The notes under the pieces were generated by a model. The model was given only the letters and a program-made list of their open reading frames with translations, did no database searches and was not told the DNA's origin. From the IMG/VR virus record IMGVR_UViG_3300009406_000001, positions 1 through 42,756 of that record: a stretch of DNA of 42,756 nucleotides. One strand, written 5' to 3'. The first letter of the stretch is position 1. Every line of letters starts with the position of its first letter. This document shows, one piece after another, positions 33,897 to 42,650 of the stretch. The translations under genes were made by a program, and so were the position numbers. Origin of the DNA: a virus.

Positions 33897-34253
33897 ATGA
33901 ACGCGACAGAACAACCACTAGTTACATCACGAGGTATTCCAGCGCCACAATATTTTAATAAACAAGGGAATAAGTTCGAATTCATTGAAGGTGAACACGG
34001 GGCAAATGCGTTTATCCAAAAAGGCACGGTTGCGATGGAATCGTGGCAAGGCGACGCGAACGAAGTGAGGACTTTCCCCAATGACCGCTTCGGATTTTCC
34101 ATCGTTAATGATGGAGCGACCGATGTAACATTTACGATTAACGGAAATACAAGAGTTGTTAAACAGCATGAAGCATACGGTGCGCTGTTTGAACCATTTA
34201 CAGCTGTGGACATCGTGACAACTAGTGCATACCGAGCGGAGGTGCTTAAATAA
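33897..34253 (+). CDS. Tail accessory protein, 118 residues
   Basis: A beta-rich protein (KFEFIEGEHGANAFIQKGTV; VTFTINGNTRVVKQHEAYGA) between hub and fibre genes. It is probably a receptor-binding accessory or baseplate component. AGGAGGG precedes the ATG; its stop overlaps the fibre start (TAATG). No named family is recognised. Confidence 0.65.
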   Translation: MNATEQPLVTSRGIPAPQYFNKQGNKFEFIEGEHGANAFIQKGTVAMESWQGDANEVRTFPNDRFGFSIVNDGATDVTFTINGNTRVVKQHEAYGALFEPFTAVDIVTTSAYRAEVLK

Positions 34254-36742
34254 TGGCGTGGAATGTTAATGGAGGTAAACAGGCGATTGATGCAGCCATG
34301 CGGGCGGAGGATTCGGCTGAACGCGCAGAATCAGCGAGTGAGTATATCGAAGAAAAGAAACCATTAATTGATGAATTTACAGGAAAGCAAACAAACCTCC
34401 AAACTCAATTAAACGATTTGGTGTTACAAAAAGGAACGGACATTGCCGAGGTTGTACAAGCTCGTGGCGGAGAGGTGACTTTGAATACTCGACTAAATAA
34501 AGTTACTACGCAGTTGGCGGATACGGCGAATGAAGTAACAACGAAAGCCGATGCGCAAACAACTAGTACAGCCTTAGCGAACTTGGAATTGGCGAAAGCA
34601 ACAAAAGCGTATGTATTAGAAAAAACACAAGCAACTAACGTACAGTGGAAAATGTCGTTTGCAACATTGAGCGAGTTACAAACCACTTACGCAACCGGTG
34701 ATATTTATAATCACGTCGTGCTAGCGGATGGTTATATCTATACTTGGCATAATGATGCGTGGGGTAGTACTCAGATTAGCGCTAATACGCGAGATTTCAC
34801 AGACCAGACAGTAGAACCTCGACACACAACGTTTTTCGAACAATCAACAAACTTATTAGACGAAACAATAGTCACAGCCAACAAAAATATTTTAGCAAAT
34901 GGAACGATTAGTGATTCAGCAGCTTATAGTCTTTATGGTCCTTATAACTGTAAACCAACAACAGATTATAGTTTTGCGGGTGTAACAAACGTTGCATGGT
35001 TTAATGCTAGTGGGGCATTCATTAGTCGGGTTCCGCTTAATAGTCCCGTAGAAAATTACGCAGGGGTAACTGTTAAAAGTCCATCTACCGCTCGCACAAT
35101 GTATGTTTCAAAGACTATACACGAGGGCAATGACTACGGTAAACAAATTAACGAGTCTAGCAACATACTACCTTACGAACCGTTTTACATTTCATTGGAT
35201 AATAATGTTTTAAAAGATGGAGGTTTACCATTAAAAAAGGTGGATTTGAATGTCTTTCAGTCGAAAACGTTAGATGGTGGCGTTTTAAAAGATAAATCAG
35301 TCTCGTTAGACCATATAGACTTTATCGGAACATCAAATAACTTGTTCAATCCGTCACTGGTGCTAAAAGGATACTCATTATCTAAAGATGGGACTATAGC
35401 AAAAACGGATTCAGGTTACGACATACTTGATTTCACGCCAGTAAAACCAAGTACAGCATATAGTTTTAAAGGGTTTAATCTGGTAGTGTGGTATAACTCC
35501 GCACATGTTCGTATCGCGCACACGGAATATTCGTATACATCAACATCGTGGGAAAACGTAATATCACCTAGTAATGCGGCGTATATGCGCGTGCGGTGGC
35601 AACCGGTAATCTACGGCGAAAAAAATCAGCAATTCAACGAAGGCTCGACTTTGCTTGATTATGATAGATTTGGTGAGCCGTCTTTAGTTGAGGACATATC
35701 ACTGTCAAATTCAAGCACGATTAAAGATATATATAATGAAATACGAGATATAAGCACTGTCGTTAATGCCGGTCGAGAATTAATTGTTGATTTTGATTGT
35801 CCTTCCGATGGCGTTTTTAGTTCGAACGAAAGTTATGAGGGTTTCACAAATTTCGGCAATGTAACAGCCGCTGAAGTATATGCTATGTATGATGCGCTAG
35901 TTACTTCATATCCCGACTACATCTCAAAAACGGCACTCGGTAACGACATGTGGGGGAATCCAATTGCTTATTACACATTTAACCCCGTACTTCCGGCGTC
36001 GTCCGAAAACTATAGGTTACCTGAAATCGGCTTAACACTTGGTACGCACGGCTACGAGCATATGCCCCCTTTATCGGTTTACCATATGCTTAAACTTGCG
36101 TGTGAAAAAACTTATGAGTATCCTTTATTACAAGTTTTACGCTTTAACGCTGTAATTAAAGTAATTCCCATTGTTAATCCGAGTGGTTGGAATGCCTACA
36201 CGCGTAAAAACGGTAACGGTATTGATATCAACCGTAGTATGCCTTTTGGATTCGTTGTTGGAAGCGATACTGCGGCTAGTACTTATGGGGGGACCGAACC
36301 ATTAATCGAATTGGAAAGCCAATATATTAAAACGTTCCTTGATACTAACCTCAACTTAGACTACCTATTTGATTATCATAATTTCCATGAAGTTGAAGTG
36401 GCTAGTCAGTTTTTATGGATTCCTATGCACATGAATACGGACGCGCCCACAAAAAATATTGCTAGAAATTTAGTAGCTCAAATGAGTCGGAAATGGGCAA
36501 GAGAGTTAGATTTCCTCACAGACGACGGTACGTTCTATGGGTATAGCGATGCGGGCACGTCAGCAACTATATCTGCATATGCCACATCGCGCGGCTTAAT
36601 ATCCACTACGTTCGAAGGACGATATCGTTGGTTGATGGATAGTACCAGTGTTGCTTATGATCATAACTCAATAAAGTGTAACGTAGAGGCATTCACAAAC
36701 TATTTGCTAATGCACTTACGTTATTCAGTTCTTAATAAATAG
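34253..36742 (+). CDS. Tail fibre with M14 zinc carboxypeptidase-like domain
   Basis: This 829-residue protein starts with a helical/coiled-coil shaft (residues 1-130), followed by two similar beta-sandwich modules (starting near TNLLDETIV and NNLFNPSLV, each with a TxYSF-A/K-G pattern), and from about residue 530 an M14 peptidase-like domain. The catalytic set is complete: His599-x-x-Glu602 (HGYE), Arg651, Asn660-Arg661 (IDINRS), zinc ligand His709 (DYHNFH) and Glu788 (TFEGRY). It may trim peptidoglycan stem peptides or a surface protein during infection. It is the last structural gene. Confidence 0.82.
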   Translation: MAWNVNGGKQAIDAAMRAEDSAERAESASEYIEEKKPLIDEFTGKQTNLQTQLNDLVLQKGTDIAEVVQARGGEVTLNTRLNKVTTQLADTANEVTTKADAQTTSTALANLELAKATKAYVLEKTQATNVQWKMSFATLSELQTTYATGDIYNHVVLADGYIYTWHNDAWGSTQISANTRDFTDQTVEPRHTTFFEQSTNLLDETIVTANKNILANGTISDSAAYSLYGPYNCKPTTDYSFAGVTNVAWFNASGAFISRVPLNSPVENYAGVTVKSPSTARTMYVSKTIHEGNDYGKQINESSNILPYEPFYISLDNNVLKDGGLPLKKVDLNVFQSKTLDGGVLKDKSVSLDHIDFIGTSNNLFNPSLVLKGYSLSKDGTIAKTDSGYDILDFTPVKPSTAYSFKGFNLVVWYNSAHVRIAHTEYSYTSTSWENVISPSNAAYMRVRWQPVIYGEKNQQFNEGSTLLDYDRFGEPSLVEDISLSNSSTIKDIYNEIRDISTVVNAGRELIVDFDCPSDGVFSSNESYEGFTNFGNVTAAEVYAMYDALVTSYPDYISKTALGNDMWGNPIAYYTFNPVLPASSENYRLPEIGLTLGTHGYEHMPPLSVYHMLKLACEKTYEYPLLQVLRFNAVIKVIPIVNPSGWNAYTRKNGNGIDINRSMPFGFVVGSDTAASTYGGTEPLIELESQYIKTFLDTNLNLDYLFDYHNFHEVEVASQFLWIPMHMNTDAPTKNIARNLVAQMSRKWARELDFLTDDGTFYGYSDAGTSATISAYATSRGLISTTFEGRYRWLMDSTSVAYDHNSIKCNVEAFTNYLLMHLRYSVLNK

Positions 36743-39396: not shown

Positions 39397-39401
39397 AAAC
39401 A

Positions 39402-39447
39402 AAAGCGGCCCATCCACAGATCATTGTGGGTAGGCCGCTTTTTTTAT
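39402..39447. terminator. Bidirectional terminator between convergent genes
   Basis: Arms 39402-39418 and about 39424-39440 form 16 pairs with one mismatch, followed by a run of seven or more T. The A-rich left flank can give a U-rich end in the other direction. It separates the lysis genes from the leftward membrane-protein gene. Confidence 0.85.
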
Positions 39448-40164
39448 TTATCGAGTTTCCCCGTTAACATCAATACGAGTTGCATTCATTGCGCCTGTCA
39501 TTCCTACCACGTTATCTACCCCTAAATCAGACGATGCATATCCATCACCCGATAAAGGTCCCCATACTTCAATTTCATCACCTACACTTGCCGAAACTTC
39601 ATAGGGAGGAAAGATAGGCATCACATATCCTTGCTCATTTTTAACTAGTAAGGCATCTTCCATAACTCCGAAGAGACCTTCAACTTTTTCAATTTTGATC
39701 AATTCACCTTTTAAATGATAATTCATTCCTTTAAATTTTGATTCAGTTTTGTCGTACAACATTGCGCCTGGTTTAGCGGGATACTCTTCAGCGTTTGCGA
39801 TAGCATCGGGTTGATAAACTACTTCCCCAGGCGGGACTACTTTTTTCTCGGGTTCTGTTTTCACTTCGGTTTTCTTTTCTTCTGTTGCTTCGGGTTTAGC
39901 TTCTTCTTTTGGCTCGGTTTTCACCACTGGTGCCGATGTTTCGATTTTCTTAGGTTCGTCTGCTTGCTCGGTTGGTGCAGTTTCGATCGTTGCATCGAAT
40001 CCGATAGTCGCTAAAACCATCATTGCAAATGTGATTCCTAGTAGTTTTGAATGTTTCTTACGGGTTACTTTATTCTTTTTAGTTGCAGAAATGATTGTTC
40101 GCACGATGAAGTATAGGAATGCTGCCGTGGACAATAACGCTATGATGAAAAATAAACTATTCAA
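39448..40164 (-). CDS. Membrane-anchored prophage protein with OB-like outer domain
   Basis: The 238-residue protein starts with TTG, 7 bases after AGGAGG on the minus strand. Residues 1-25 and 41-60 are hydrophobic, with a basic loop between (KKNKVTRKKH). Residues 65-115 form a Glu/Lys/Pro/Thr-rich linker with repeats (EEAKPEATEEKKTEVKTEPE). The C-terminal 110 residues are beta-rich (NYHLKGELIKIEKVEGLFGV; VGDEIEVWGPLSGDGY), an OB-like pattern. It probably reaches outside the cell. Transcribed against the lytic genes, it may be expressed in the lysogen; superinfection exclusion is a reasonable guess, not shown. Confidence 0.65.
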   Translation of the reverse strand: MNSLFFIIALLSTAAFLYFIVRTIISATKKNKVTRKKHSKLLGITFAMMVLATIGFDATIETAPTEQADEPKKIETSAPVVKTEPKEEAKPEATEEKKTEVKTEPEKKVVPPGEVVYQPDAIANAEEYPAKPGAMLYDKTESKFKGMNYHLKGELIKIEKVEGLFGVMEDALLVKNEQGYVMPIFPPYEVSASVGDEIEVWGPLSGDGYASSDLGVDNVVGMTGAMNATRIDVNGETR

Positions 40165-40243: not shown

Positions 40244-40846
40244 CTACTCAACCCTTCGCCATCCATTCACAACAAAATCCCCCACATACATCAACATATC
40301 TGCCCAAGCAATAACAGTTTTATACGGATTTTCAGAGTTGATATATTTCATGACCTTCTTTAATTCGGTTTGGTGTTCCTCGGTTAGTCGTTTTCTCTTA
40401 GAGTAATTTCTCATAAGAGTGTGGATGAAATCGGGATCACGGATGCTGGCGCTAAGTAAGATTGCGACTGCACGAGAAGGAGTGACATCTAGGGCGAATG
40501 CTAACAATCCAATGTTTTCAAAATCATCTGTTGTAAATTTAGCGGTGATTCGTTCATGAAAGCTTTTATCCTTTTTACGCTGCAATGAAGGATTATCTAA
40601 ACTACCAAAGTAGATGGTATTTCCAAGTCGCACCCCTCTCCGAAAGTTAGGCTTCAATAATCCCATTACCTCTTTTGATTGAATACCTTCCGCACACAGG
40701 ATCACCGCAATGTCTTTGACAGGTAAATCGCATATGTCGGACAAGCGGTAGATGTTTTTCTTTAAATGAACAGGAATCACTGGCTTCACATCTCGCTTTT
40801 TATCCGACCGAACCTTTCTTTCTCCCCTATCCCCCACCGTTTCCAT
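40244..40846 (-). CDS. DNA-binding-like protein with two RHH-like segments
   Basis: This 200-residue protein is not a recognised family. Residues about 97-137 fit a ribbon-helix-helix: a strand (RITAKFT) followed by helices (DDFENIGLLAFALDV, then SRAVAILLSASIR). An earlier segment (about 23-55: VIPVHLKKNIYRLSDICDLP then KDIAVILCAEGI) has the same outline, so two such units may lie in one chain. It is divergent from parM, like an autoregulator or second centromere-binding factor. AGAGG lies directly at the ATG, so GTG at 40837 may be the true start. Confidence 0.5.
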   Translation of the reverse strand: METVGDRGERKVRSDKKRDVKPVIPVHLKKNIYRLSDICDLPVKDIAVILCAEGIQSKEVMGLLKPNFRRGVRLGNTIYFGSLDNPSLQRKKDKSFHERITAKFTTDDFENIGLLAFALDVTPSRAVAILLSASIRDPDFIHTLMRNYSKRKRLTEEHQTELKKVMKYINSENPYKTVIAWADMLMYVGDFVVNGWRRVE

Positions 40847-41055
40847 CCTCTCTTATCGTGTATTTGATTAGGACACATTCCGCAGTCCTAAGCTTAAATC
40901 TACTATATGAACGATAGGGGAGTGGTATGAATCACTATTTTTATGAATATTTGGTTTAGTCTACTAATACACTATGTAATGCAACGGTAATTCATTGAGA
41001 GTGTGGATGGCCAGTTTGGTAATGCAGGAGTATTACATTATAGGAGGATGATAGA
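40847..41055. promoter_or_regulatory. Divergent region upstream of parM, candidate parC/operator
   Basis: This 209-bp region holds a perfect dyad TTAGGAC/GTCCTAA (40868-40874, 40885-40891), three TATGAA direct repeats (40906, 40926, 40942) with a dyad AGTG...CACT around the second, and two possible rightward promoters: TTGGTT-16-TATGTA (40951-40978) and TTGAGA-17-GGTAAT (40995-41023). Actin-type partition loci have the centromere at this position, and ParR binds repeats there. No strict iteron array is seen, so the centromere role is tentative. Confidence 0.4.
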
Positions 41056-41916
41056 ATGGGTGGATTAATACTGGGATTAGATGCAGGGAATCACATGGCG
41101 AAGGTGGCAGGACCTTACGGGGTGGATTCATATAGAACAGCCATCTGTGATTGGTTCGAACGGGATGTAGAAGAGTCATTCGGTAACGATGATATGGAAT
41201 TTGAAATCTGTGGCAGAAAAGGGTTTGCAGGATCCATTGCTGAACATGAGGATGAATTCGGTGGTGGTTCAATGTTTGGCGATACCAAGGCGCATGAGGA
41301 TACGAAAATAAGAGTGCTACTAGCAATCGTTCGTTATGTTAAAAAATACTGTCCACAAGAATACTCAGTAAAAATAGTGGTCGGGCAGCCAGTGAAAACA
41401 CATAAGGAATCCGAGAAAAAGAAAATCAAGGATATGTTAATTGGTCATCATAATTTTGTAGTAAACGGCGCTCATAAAAATATAACCATTGAAGCGGTAG
41501 AGGTAGCTACAGAGGGTGGTGGTGCGTTCTGGTCAAACCCCGACAATGGCACGATTAGAGTATTAGACATAGGTAGCGGCACGGTGAATGCGGTCACGAC
41601 AAAAGATAAGAAGTTCATTAATAATTCGTCGGAGACATTTAACTTTGGCGTCGAAACGATTAAAAATAAAGCTGATTTAGATGGGTTGTCCCGCGGTATC
41701 ATCCGAAATACTACTAAATTGAAGTGGCATAAGAATGACCGGGTATACGTCTGTGGAGGGATAGCAGAACAAATAGCGCCTTATATAGAAGAACACTATG
41801 CAAATTCAGAGGTGGTCTATCCACAGTTGCAGTGCCAGGACGGTGTTATCGCGGTTCAATCTGTGTTTGCTAACGCGGTAGGATTCTATAACATCGCAAA
41901 GGGTGTTTACAGATGA
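41056..41916 (+). CDS. parM: Actin-like partition ATPase, ParM family
   Basis: The 286-residue protein has the actin-fold nucleotide signatures: phosphate-1 loop LGLDAGNHMAKVAG (residues 6-19), phosphate-2 loop VLDIGSGTVNAVT (about 173-185), and adenosine motif YVCGGIAEQ near residue 234. Relatives polymerise into filaments that push plasmid copies apart. It is slightly shorter than R1 ParM. TAGGAGG precedes the ATG, and a ParR-like gene overlaps its stop. In a prophage it may segregate an extrachromosomal form or move replicating DNA. Confidence 0.85.
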   Translation: MGGLILGLDAGNHMAKVAGPYGVDSYRTAICDWFERDVEESFGNDDMEFEICGRKGFAGSIAEHEDEFGGGSMFGDTKAHEDTKIRVLLAIVRYVKKYCPQEYSVKIVVGQPVKTHKESEKKKIKDMLIGHHNFVVNGAHKNITIEAVEVATEGGGAFWSNPDNGTIRVLDIGSGTVNAVTTKDKKFINNSSETFNFGVETIKNKADLDGLSRGIIRNTTKLKWHKNDRVYVCGGIAEQIAPYIEEHYANSEVVYPQLQCQDGVIAVQSVFANAVGFYNIAKGVYR

Positions 41917-42125
41917 GAAAAATTAAGACGACAAGTTTCAATCAACAAAATGGATATGAAGAAAGGTTGCTGGCATACGCTGAATCACCCGAACATGGTG
42001 ACTATAGCAACTACATCAAGCGATTGATTGGACGCGATATGGAGGGGCAGAGTCGCCCCCCTGTAGCGGCATTCGTTAGCGCACCTGTAGTTAAGTCGAC
42101 GGATGATTTCAGCGGGTTCATTTAA
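41913..42125 (+). CDS. ParR-like partition adaptor
   Basis: The 70-residue protein overlaps parM by 4 bases. The N-terminal part fits a ParR-type ribbon-helix-helix: TTSFNQQNGYEERLLAYAES then DYSNYIKRLIGRDM. The C-terminus (VKSTDDFSGFI) is a flexible acidic-aromatic tail of the kind that docks on ParM filaments. It would bind the centromere and connect it to the filament. Family assignment rests on pattern plus position. Confidence 0.7.
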   Translation: MRKIKTTSFNQQNGYEERLLAYAESPEHGDYSNYIKRLIGRDMEGQSRPPVAAFVSAPVVKSTDDFSGFI

Positions 42126-42399
42126 CGTCCTGTTGGATAAAACGAATTAATTTTATAGCGTGTAAAATTTCCTCGTCTGTTGCGCTAATTTTTATTAACT
42201 CCACAGGCGTATTAAAGAAGTATCGCGGATCAACTTTGTACACATCAATAATTTTCTGTAGCAGGTCAACAGGTATATCGTATTTACCACGCTCTATTTT
42301 CGACAGATTGCTTTTGTCATGGCTAATTTTATCTGCTAAATTTTGAAGTGTGTCTTTATTTTCGGTTCTTAGTATTCGGATTTTAGTACCGATATTCAT
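42118..42399 (-). CDS. XRE-family regulator near attR
   Basis: The 93-residue protein carries an XRE helix-turn-helix (residues 5-60: TLQNLADKISHDKSNLSKIERGKYDIPVD) and a helical C-terminus. It starts with ATG after AGGTGG on the minus strand and converges on parR, overlapping it by 8 bases. It might control the partition cassette or be a second lysogeny regulator; a sigma-A-like TATAAC lies upstream. Confidence 0.8.
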   Translation of the reverse strand: MNIGTKIRILRTENKDTLQNLADKISHDKSNLSKIERGKYDIPVDLLQKIIDVYKVDPRYFFNTPVELIKISATDEEILHAIKLIRFIQQDVK

Positions 42400-42629: not shown

Positions 42630-42650
42630 CGACTCCCGCCGTCTCCATAT
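42630..42650 (+). repeat. attR core (21-bp direct repeat with attL)
   Basis: Exact copy of 107-127. Only the last bases of the tmRNA are present here; the T-loop 5' strand is replaced by phage sequence (GAACGAGG), so this copy cannot make a working tmRNA. Confidence 0.9.

Follow-up and report, generated by a model that had tools for sequence, protein, structure and literature searches.

The AlfA-AlfB-parN system of Bacillus subtilis pLS32/pBS32 is described as a plasmid partition system, and its plasmid also bears a cryptic prophage (PMC6751061). On an integrating element, the srpMRC locus of ICE SXT/R391 is an actin-type system located near int, with four 13-bp repeats, and is reported to stabilise its element (PMC4489591). 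The AlpAC system is found in CGP3, a cryptic prophage of 187 kb in C. glutamicum; its adapter gene comes first, it has 24 alpS repeats, and its adapter is presented as not homologous to ParR/AlfB (PMC4446434, PMC5539076). Bacillus plasmid prophages, B83 and IEBH among them, are described as commonly carrying ParM with a ribbon-helix-helix (RHH) adapter; B83 also has Xer recombinases and a RepA-like initiator (PMC8026635, PMC6669507). Chromosome-encoded ParMs have not been interpreted as phage genes, the word "phage" being absent from the main text of their description (PMC12270681).

Actin-type partition genes with RHH adapters in Bacillus plasmid prophages, and an actin system in one integrated prophage, are therefore already known. 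What appears to be new is that Bacillota phages encoding recombinases repeatedly carry, as a module, an AlfA-like cassette together with two conserved palindromes; no description of such a module was found among titles and starts of abstracts (subscription papers excepted), which is a weak negative.

The sequence analysed here, hereafter the window, is a virus record of 42,756 nt (IMGVR_UViG_3300009406_000001). A two-gene actin-type partition operon occupies positions 41056-42125, and the window exhibits features of type II systems: an actin-fold motor, an adapter gene directly downstream and repeated upstream sites, two in number. Starting from the endolysin gene, a strong hairpin is followed by two genes on the leftward strand (39448-40164 and 40244-40846); the motor gene then begins after 209 bp of intergenic DNA, and the adapter gene and a leftward HTH gene complete the series up to attR.

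1-127, + strand: 3' part of ssrA (tmRNA), the integration target (Rfam RF00023, 67.9 bits, model positions 236-374 of 374)
107-127, + strand: attL core, 21 bp, equal to the ssrA 3' end (exact repeat of 42630-42650)
189-1262, - strand: tyrosine integrase (PHROG 1 integrase, 1.1e-80)
39401-39442, + strand: terminator-like hairpin 3' of the endolysin gene (-27.2 kcal/mol, z -6.8, T run after it)
40244-40846, - strand: divergent gene of about 200 aa, a recurrent neighbour and proposed DNA-binding regulator (homologues, alignment)
40904-40925, no strand assigned: TATATGAACGATAGGGGAGTGG element between the divergent genes (matched once in the window)
40977-40992, no strand assigned: candidate centromere/operator site 1, TAATGCAACGGTAATT (relatives' matrix)
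41020-41035, no strand assigned: candidate site 2, TAATGCAGGAGTATTA, at a distance of 43 bp from site 1 (highest-scoring single site of the window, same matrix)
41056-41916, + strand: AlfA-like (ParM-like) actin motor gene, 286 aa (ALP_N, PHROG 691, AlphaFold model)
41913-42125, + strand: ParR/AlfB-like adapter gene, 70 aa, with an RHH-like core, a linker and a C-terminal DDFSGFI (ORF, model, AlfB alignment)
42118-42399, - strand: Cro/CI-type HTH regulator between cassette and attR (HTH_3, 2.8e-10)
42630-42650, + strand: attR core, 21 bp (exact repeat of 107-127)

The preliminary description, made from the sequence alone, had placed a ParM/ParR cassette next to attR of an ssrA-integrated prophage. 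This frame was confirmed by the tmRNA 3' end, the integrase and the 21-bp att repeat; because this exact repeat marks attL and attR, the cassette can be said to adjoin attR. Other prophage genes in the window encoded a repressor-type regulator, an annealing protein, a helicase, a primase, a terminase, a portal, a major head protein, a holin and an amidase. The window was not assigned to the plasmid prophages, defined as extrachromosomal and without integration, given its integrase, the ssrA 3' end and the att repeats that flank it. Scans of a subset of the window ORFs recognised no initiator of plasmid type. We also observed an 829-aa protein encoded just 5' of the holin region (34253-36742, + strand), the C-terminal part of which we take to be zinc carboxypeptidase-like (GTHGYEHMPP and YHNFHEVE stretches).

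The motor has an actin fold with nucleotide-binding motifs and is closest to AlfA. Its gene matched Pfam ALP_N (6.1e-15) and PHROG 691, "partition protein" (2.1e-41), in agreement with the ParM-like gene described previously. When a profile of 47 motors (the window and fetched loci) was compared with solved structures, AlfA ranked best (3.2e-20 and 9.7e-20, nearly full length), followed by CorM and clostridial ParMs, with R1 ParM behind at 6.7e-5. The earlier identification as an actin-like motor is reasonable, with the correction that the nearest solved relative is AlfA and not R1 ParM. Structure prediction, which had been proposed as a check, yielded an actin fold (mean pLDDT of 92.9) that matched both AlfA and ParM structures. 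AlfA was the top match of this model by Foldseek and by Z (6f95; Z 29.3, rmsd 2.2 Å over 260 residues), Dh-cParM1 was third (Z 28.1) and R1 ParM reached 23.5; judged by the predicted fold, AlfA is only slightly ahead of Dh-cParM1.

The motor and AlfA share only 22% identity, but between the second phosphate motif and the adenosine motif they align almost collinearly. AlfA is not known to possess actin subdomain IIB. The nucleotide-site residues D9, G11, K16, E153, D171, G173-T176 and G234-G235 were invariant in 47 out of the 47 aligned motors, which speaks against the loss of ATP binding that the preliminary description had considered.

The ParR-like gene of that description was also recovered, as an ORF overlapping the motor gene by 4 bases at ATGA. 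Among relatives, an adapter ORF was called 3' of 62 out of 63 distinct motor genes whose downstream sequence extended for 200 bp or more (74 rows, minus 6 duplicates, 3 without a gene end and 2 with less than 200 bp downstream); at the remaining locus, L077, the adapter start was present and the frame was unusually long. The offset of the adapter from the motor was -3 in 24 cases and -7 in 16. Adapters were characterized, from the N-terminus to the C-terminus, by a conserved block, a variable linker and a hydrophobic pair, the latter being present in 59 of the 62 adapters. In the AlphaFold model, residues 1-40 averaged more than 90 pLDDT, with helices at 14-23 and 31-43, and the rest was of low confidence; as modelled, the core fits a ribbon-helix-helix monomer. 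Foldseek gave zero fold matches with this model and, for this reason, there is no VIA-align match either. The adapter sequence had no credible Pfam match, and a PDB sequence search returned weak rows for unrelated proteins; against the AlfB profile, hhalign gave a probability of 60, over 20 columns only.

In relatives, the motor gene is preceded by a pair of imperfect palindromes of the form TATTACNNNNGTAATA. Using a matrix built from 26 relatives' sites, from which the window and its near-copies were excluded, the window pair at 40977 and 41020 ranked first among 170,794 position-spacing combinations (score of 21.0, versus 6.0 for the next). In 18 of 20 genome loci, represented by stretches of 18.5-19 kb, the top pair was located 68-95 bp 5' of the motor start. 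Four stretches (L112, L124, L127 and L128) contain training sequences, and among the loci not used for the matrix the top pair was found just upstream of the motor in 14 out of 16. The lead over the next best pair was narrow at L111 (7.5 versus 5.9), L115 (11.1 versus 7.6) and L117 (7.6 versus 3.8), and the pair was missing at two of the 20 loci, L120, whose motor is 29% identical, and L121.

A palindrome-pair search blind to sequence placed the best-pair spacing at 40-44 bp in 28 of 66 loci, versus 7.1% in shuffles. Further spacings were observed near 31-32, 52-55 and 61-63 bp, roughly in steps of a DNA turn, this being a rough reading of related loci. The helical phasing of the spacings reached an R of 0.72 at 10.5 bp (28 loci; L046, L068, L070, L076 and L077 passed the same cut and were removed as near-duplicates) and was nearly flat across 10-11 bp. 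Because the loci are related, its p-value of 4e-7 should not be read as a real probability; outside 39-45 bp, nine loci gave a p of about 0.014. When the unbiased test was applied to the window alone, other pairs were chosen (44 of 100 and 4 of 60 shuffles were as good), and the window copies of the palindrome were more diverged than those of relatives. The test was weak here, and the window pair is claimed only via the relatives' matrix. Dispersed matches to the consensus, with up to three mismatches, numbered 36 in the window versus 28.2 ± 5.4 expected, and a second array is therefore not claimed.

Across 25 loci, chosen for their clear pairs, operator divergence tracked motor divergence (partial r 0.53, p 0.0002); a signal specific to the adapter was absent (partial r -0.01, p 0.49). 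Since site divergence carries no such signal, the putative binding of the adapter to the sites is proposed from their position. Site 2 ends 20 bp 5' of the motor start codon, which makes autoregulation plausible; a promoter scan at the cassette revealed nothing convincing, and the two sites may be an operator only. The three-part anatomy, consisting of motor, adapter and site pair, is secure; the site pair is an addition to the preliminary description, which had named the two genes only.

Compared with the described systems, the cassette most resembles AlfAB, which provides the best motor match by both profile and structure and has the same motor-then-adapter order and 4-base gene overlap. AlfB of pBS32 (L089:23302-23583) is similar to the adapter in size, layout and core end, with a tail of DDSGGFL versus DDFSGFI. 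However, AlfAB sits on a plasmid that encodes a replication initiator, and the motors are distant in sequence. The same pair search did not find a 16-bp palindrome pair upstream of alfA (20 of 100 base shuffles were as good). On pBS32 (L089 with L088) we also noted genes for phage heads and tails and two genes of integrase type; given these phage genes, AlfAB may itself be a phage-plasmid system.

The srpMRC system, compared by description only, is likewise an actin-type partition system on an integrating element, with few repeats as centromere, but it is conjugative, belongs to Gammaproteobacteria and has a motor that its authors consider distantly related to R1 ParM. AlpA-AlpC-alpS shares with the window an actin-like motor, a DNA-binding adapter, upstream repeats and an integrated prophage; in the window, however, the motor comes first and there are two sites, versus four in srpC and 24 in alpS, so that the window does not have the AlpAC layout. 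The likeness to AlpC drawn in the preliminary description holds for an actin system on an integrated prophage and is otherwise loose, AlfAB being closer. Bacillus plasmid prophages, which are temperate phages too, carry an actin-like motor gene and, after it, one for a small RHH-type adapter, an arrangement like that of the window, but are extrachromosomal by description, whereas the window has an integrase, att sites and ssrA integration. Finally, Dh-cParM1 and Cb-cParM are ParM genes on chromosomes, and some published chromosome-encoded ParMs may be prophage genes like that of the window.

A tblastn search with the motor retrieved 12 phage records and 7 plasmid records, some homologues being on large plasmids. 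Motor scans yielded 8 and 68 viral loci and 4 genome loci, the latter in Paenisporosarcina, Sporosarcina, Psychrobacillus and Lysinibacillus. In the family around the Paenisporosarcina locus, 19 out of 261 genomes had a match at 1e-30 or better, and several of these matches are chromosomal, as they lie on contigs of 0.5-4 Mb.

Recombinases were searched for in 42 longer viral records, drawn from 76 viral locus rows (duplicates included) and leaving out short or duplicate contigs and genome loci. A tyrosine recombinase was found in 27 of these, a large serine recombinase in 14, and either type in 37. Partition genes had been thought unusual in a phage with an integrase and att sites; with a site-specific recombinase in 37 of 42 related records, this view was not upheld. 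On the circle, the recombinase was located at most 6.5 kb from the motor in 23 of 37 records (11.6 expected; the 5 of 42 records lacking both families were omitted) and farther away in 14, which do not show the "beside integrase" arrangement. One record of 41,362 bases (L003/L021) encodes a motor identical to that of the window, with cassette-side neighbours 97-100% identical, and yielded a match for a large serine recombinase but none for a tyrosine integrase; the cassette was thus kept when the integration machinery differed. Next to the cassette in 20 genome stretches, we found a tRNA-Arg in 2 and neither tRNA nor tmRNA in 18, so these data do not establish integration at ssrA as typical of the family. 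The motor of phage PVJ1 is 58.6% identical to that of the window. PVJ1 is described as integrating at deoD, with attP beside the integrase, and as induced by mitomycin C, and the term ParM does not occur in the main text (PMC8779076).

On balance, we slightly favour the view that the cassette is a self-contained three-part type II (actin-type) partition or positioning system of the AlfAB kind, which segregates or retains the unintegrated circle; its role as such is about an even call. This view draws on the AlfA-like motor, the conserved adapter tail and site pair, the frequent recombinases and the srpMRC precedent. Counting against it are the small number of sites, the unbiased pair test that chose other pairs in the window, the absence of an adapter-specific divergence signal, the adapter model's empty fold search, its short AlfB match and the lack of a recognised plasmid-type initiator among the proteins scanned. 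An integrated prophage needs no partition, and the cassette would therefore act on the free circle or have some other use. What follows is our inference as regards filaments, binding of the sites, docking of the tail, autorepression and the stage of the life cycle concerned. Adapter dimers would occupy both 16-bp palindromes 5' of the motor gene, on one helix face, and the flexible adapter tail DDFSGFI would dock on AlfA-like nucleotide-driven filaments, which would push or hold the attached phage circle. At the same sites, the adapter could repress its own promoter. The most likely task would be to segregate or retain a low-copy unintegrated circle as cells divide, both before an infecting genome has integrated and once a prophage has excised spontaneously or abortively, comparable to srpMRC for ICE R391. 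By analogy, the srpMRC precedent shows that an actin-type system with few repeats can stabilise an integrating element. Both roles put forward in the preliminary description, stabilisation of an excised form or AlpC-like movement of DNA, are reasonable.

In the latter role, the main rival, which we regard as rather doubtful, filaments formed after induction would carry the excised DNA to a favourable site, such as the membrane, and raise lytic replication without segregation. In CGP3, deletion of AlpAC is reported to lower circular phage DNA about two-fold, and the authors argue against segregation (PMC4446434); the window cassette has the same integrating-phage context. Nevertheless, its gene order, adapter type and number of repeats are unlike those of AlpAC, and its closest relative, AlfAB, is described as a plasmid partition system (PMC6751061). 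Moreover, the hairpin at 39401-39442, which was absent from the list of a simple terminator scan, separates the late operon from the cassette. Its location 3' of the endolysin gene favours cassette expression outside late lysis and, together with the cassette's own control region, it argues mildly against a late lytic role; early lytic expression is still compatible with it.

It is improbable that the cassette is simply a passenger. Such cassettes are described as common in Bacillus plasmid prophages (PMC8026635, PMC6669507), homologues occur on large plasmids, and pBS32 combines AlfAB with phage genes, all of which would suit a passenger. However, integrating members have conserved the nucleotide residues of the motor, the tail of the adapter and the pair of sites; decay would be expected of a passenger, yet no internal stop codon was found in 21 genome copies. 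Least probable of all is that adapter and sites mainly serve incompatibility or superinfection exclusion, by titrating or mis-segregating incoming relatives. Site sequences do differ among relatives with the layout kept, as if escaping each other's adapters, but this divergence simply follows that of the motor.

Segregation or retention of the unintegrated circle might have a wider counterpart. We suggest, tentatively, that for many integrating Bacillota phages a plasmid-like phase with active segregation is a regular part of the life cycle, the cassette being a standard module that many of them keep beside attP. If so, the circle would be carried through divisions until integration or re-integration, and "integrating" and "plasmid" prophages would be two ends of one life style. 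Partition genes are usually taken as a sign of a plasmid prophage, whereas here they were mostly found in phages encoding site-specific recombinases; if the role were confirmed, the unintegrated phase of temperate phages would be a real, selected stage. PVJ1, which is integrating, mitomycin-inducible and carries the same cassette, provides a laboratory test case, and the conserved two-site element would be, among actin-type systems, a candidate centromere of very small size that lends itself to reconstitution.

Two leftward DNA-binding-type proteins had previously been described as bracketing the cassette. Both genes are indeed leftward and the product of 42118-42399 belongs to HTH_3, but that of 40244-40846 is without a clear family, with no Pfam match over the cut-off (best 4.5e-4). 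From its sequence pattern, this second product may be DNA-binding and perhaps a tandem RHH regulator. In 17 rows (window and near-copies counted), such a gene, coding for about 160-220 aa, lay divergent from that of the motor, and one was found on a Sporosarcina plasmid. The second half of these proteins, with VTIRFKxxDYDxLxxLAxALDxTPS, has a ribbon-helix-helix-like look.

In the divergent intergenic region, zero chance occurrences of TATATGAACGATAGGGGAGTGG would be expected in the window. Elements similar to TATATGAACGATAGGGGAGTGG, compared by eye, were also observed in L005, L007, L011, L012, L015 and L019. Moreover, a short frame of about 30-33 codons, with a peptide end resembling GIPxKKKPK, was seen by eye beside the cassette, upstream of the motor gene, in L007, L012 and L019. 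The same type of frame was present on the reverse strand in L008 and L016.
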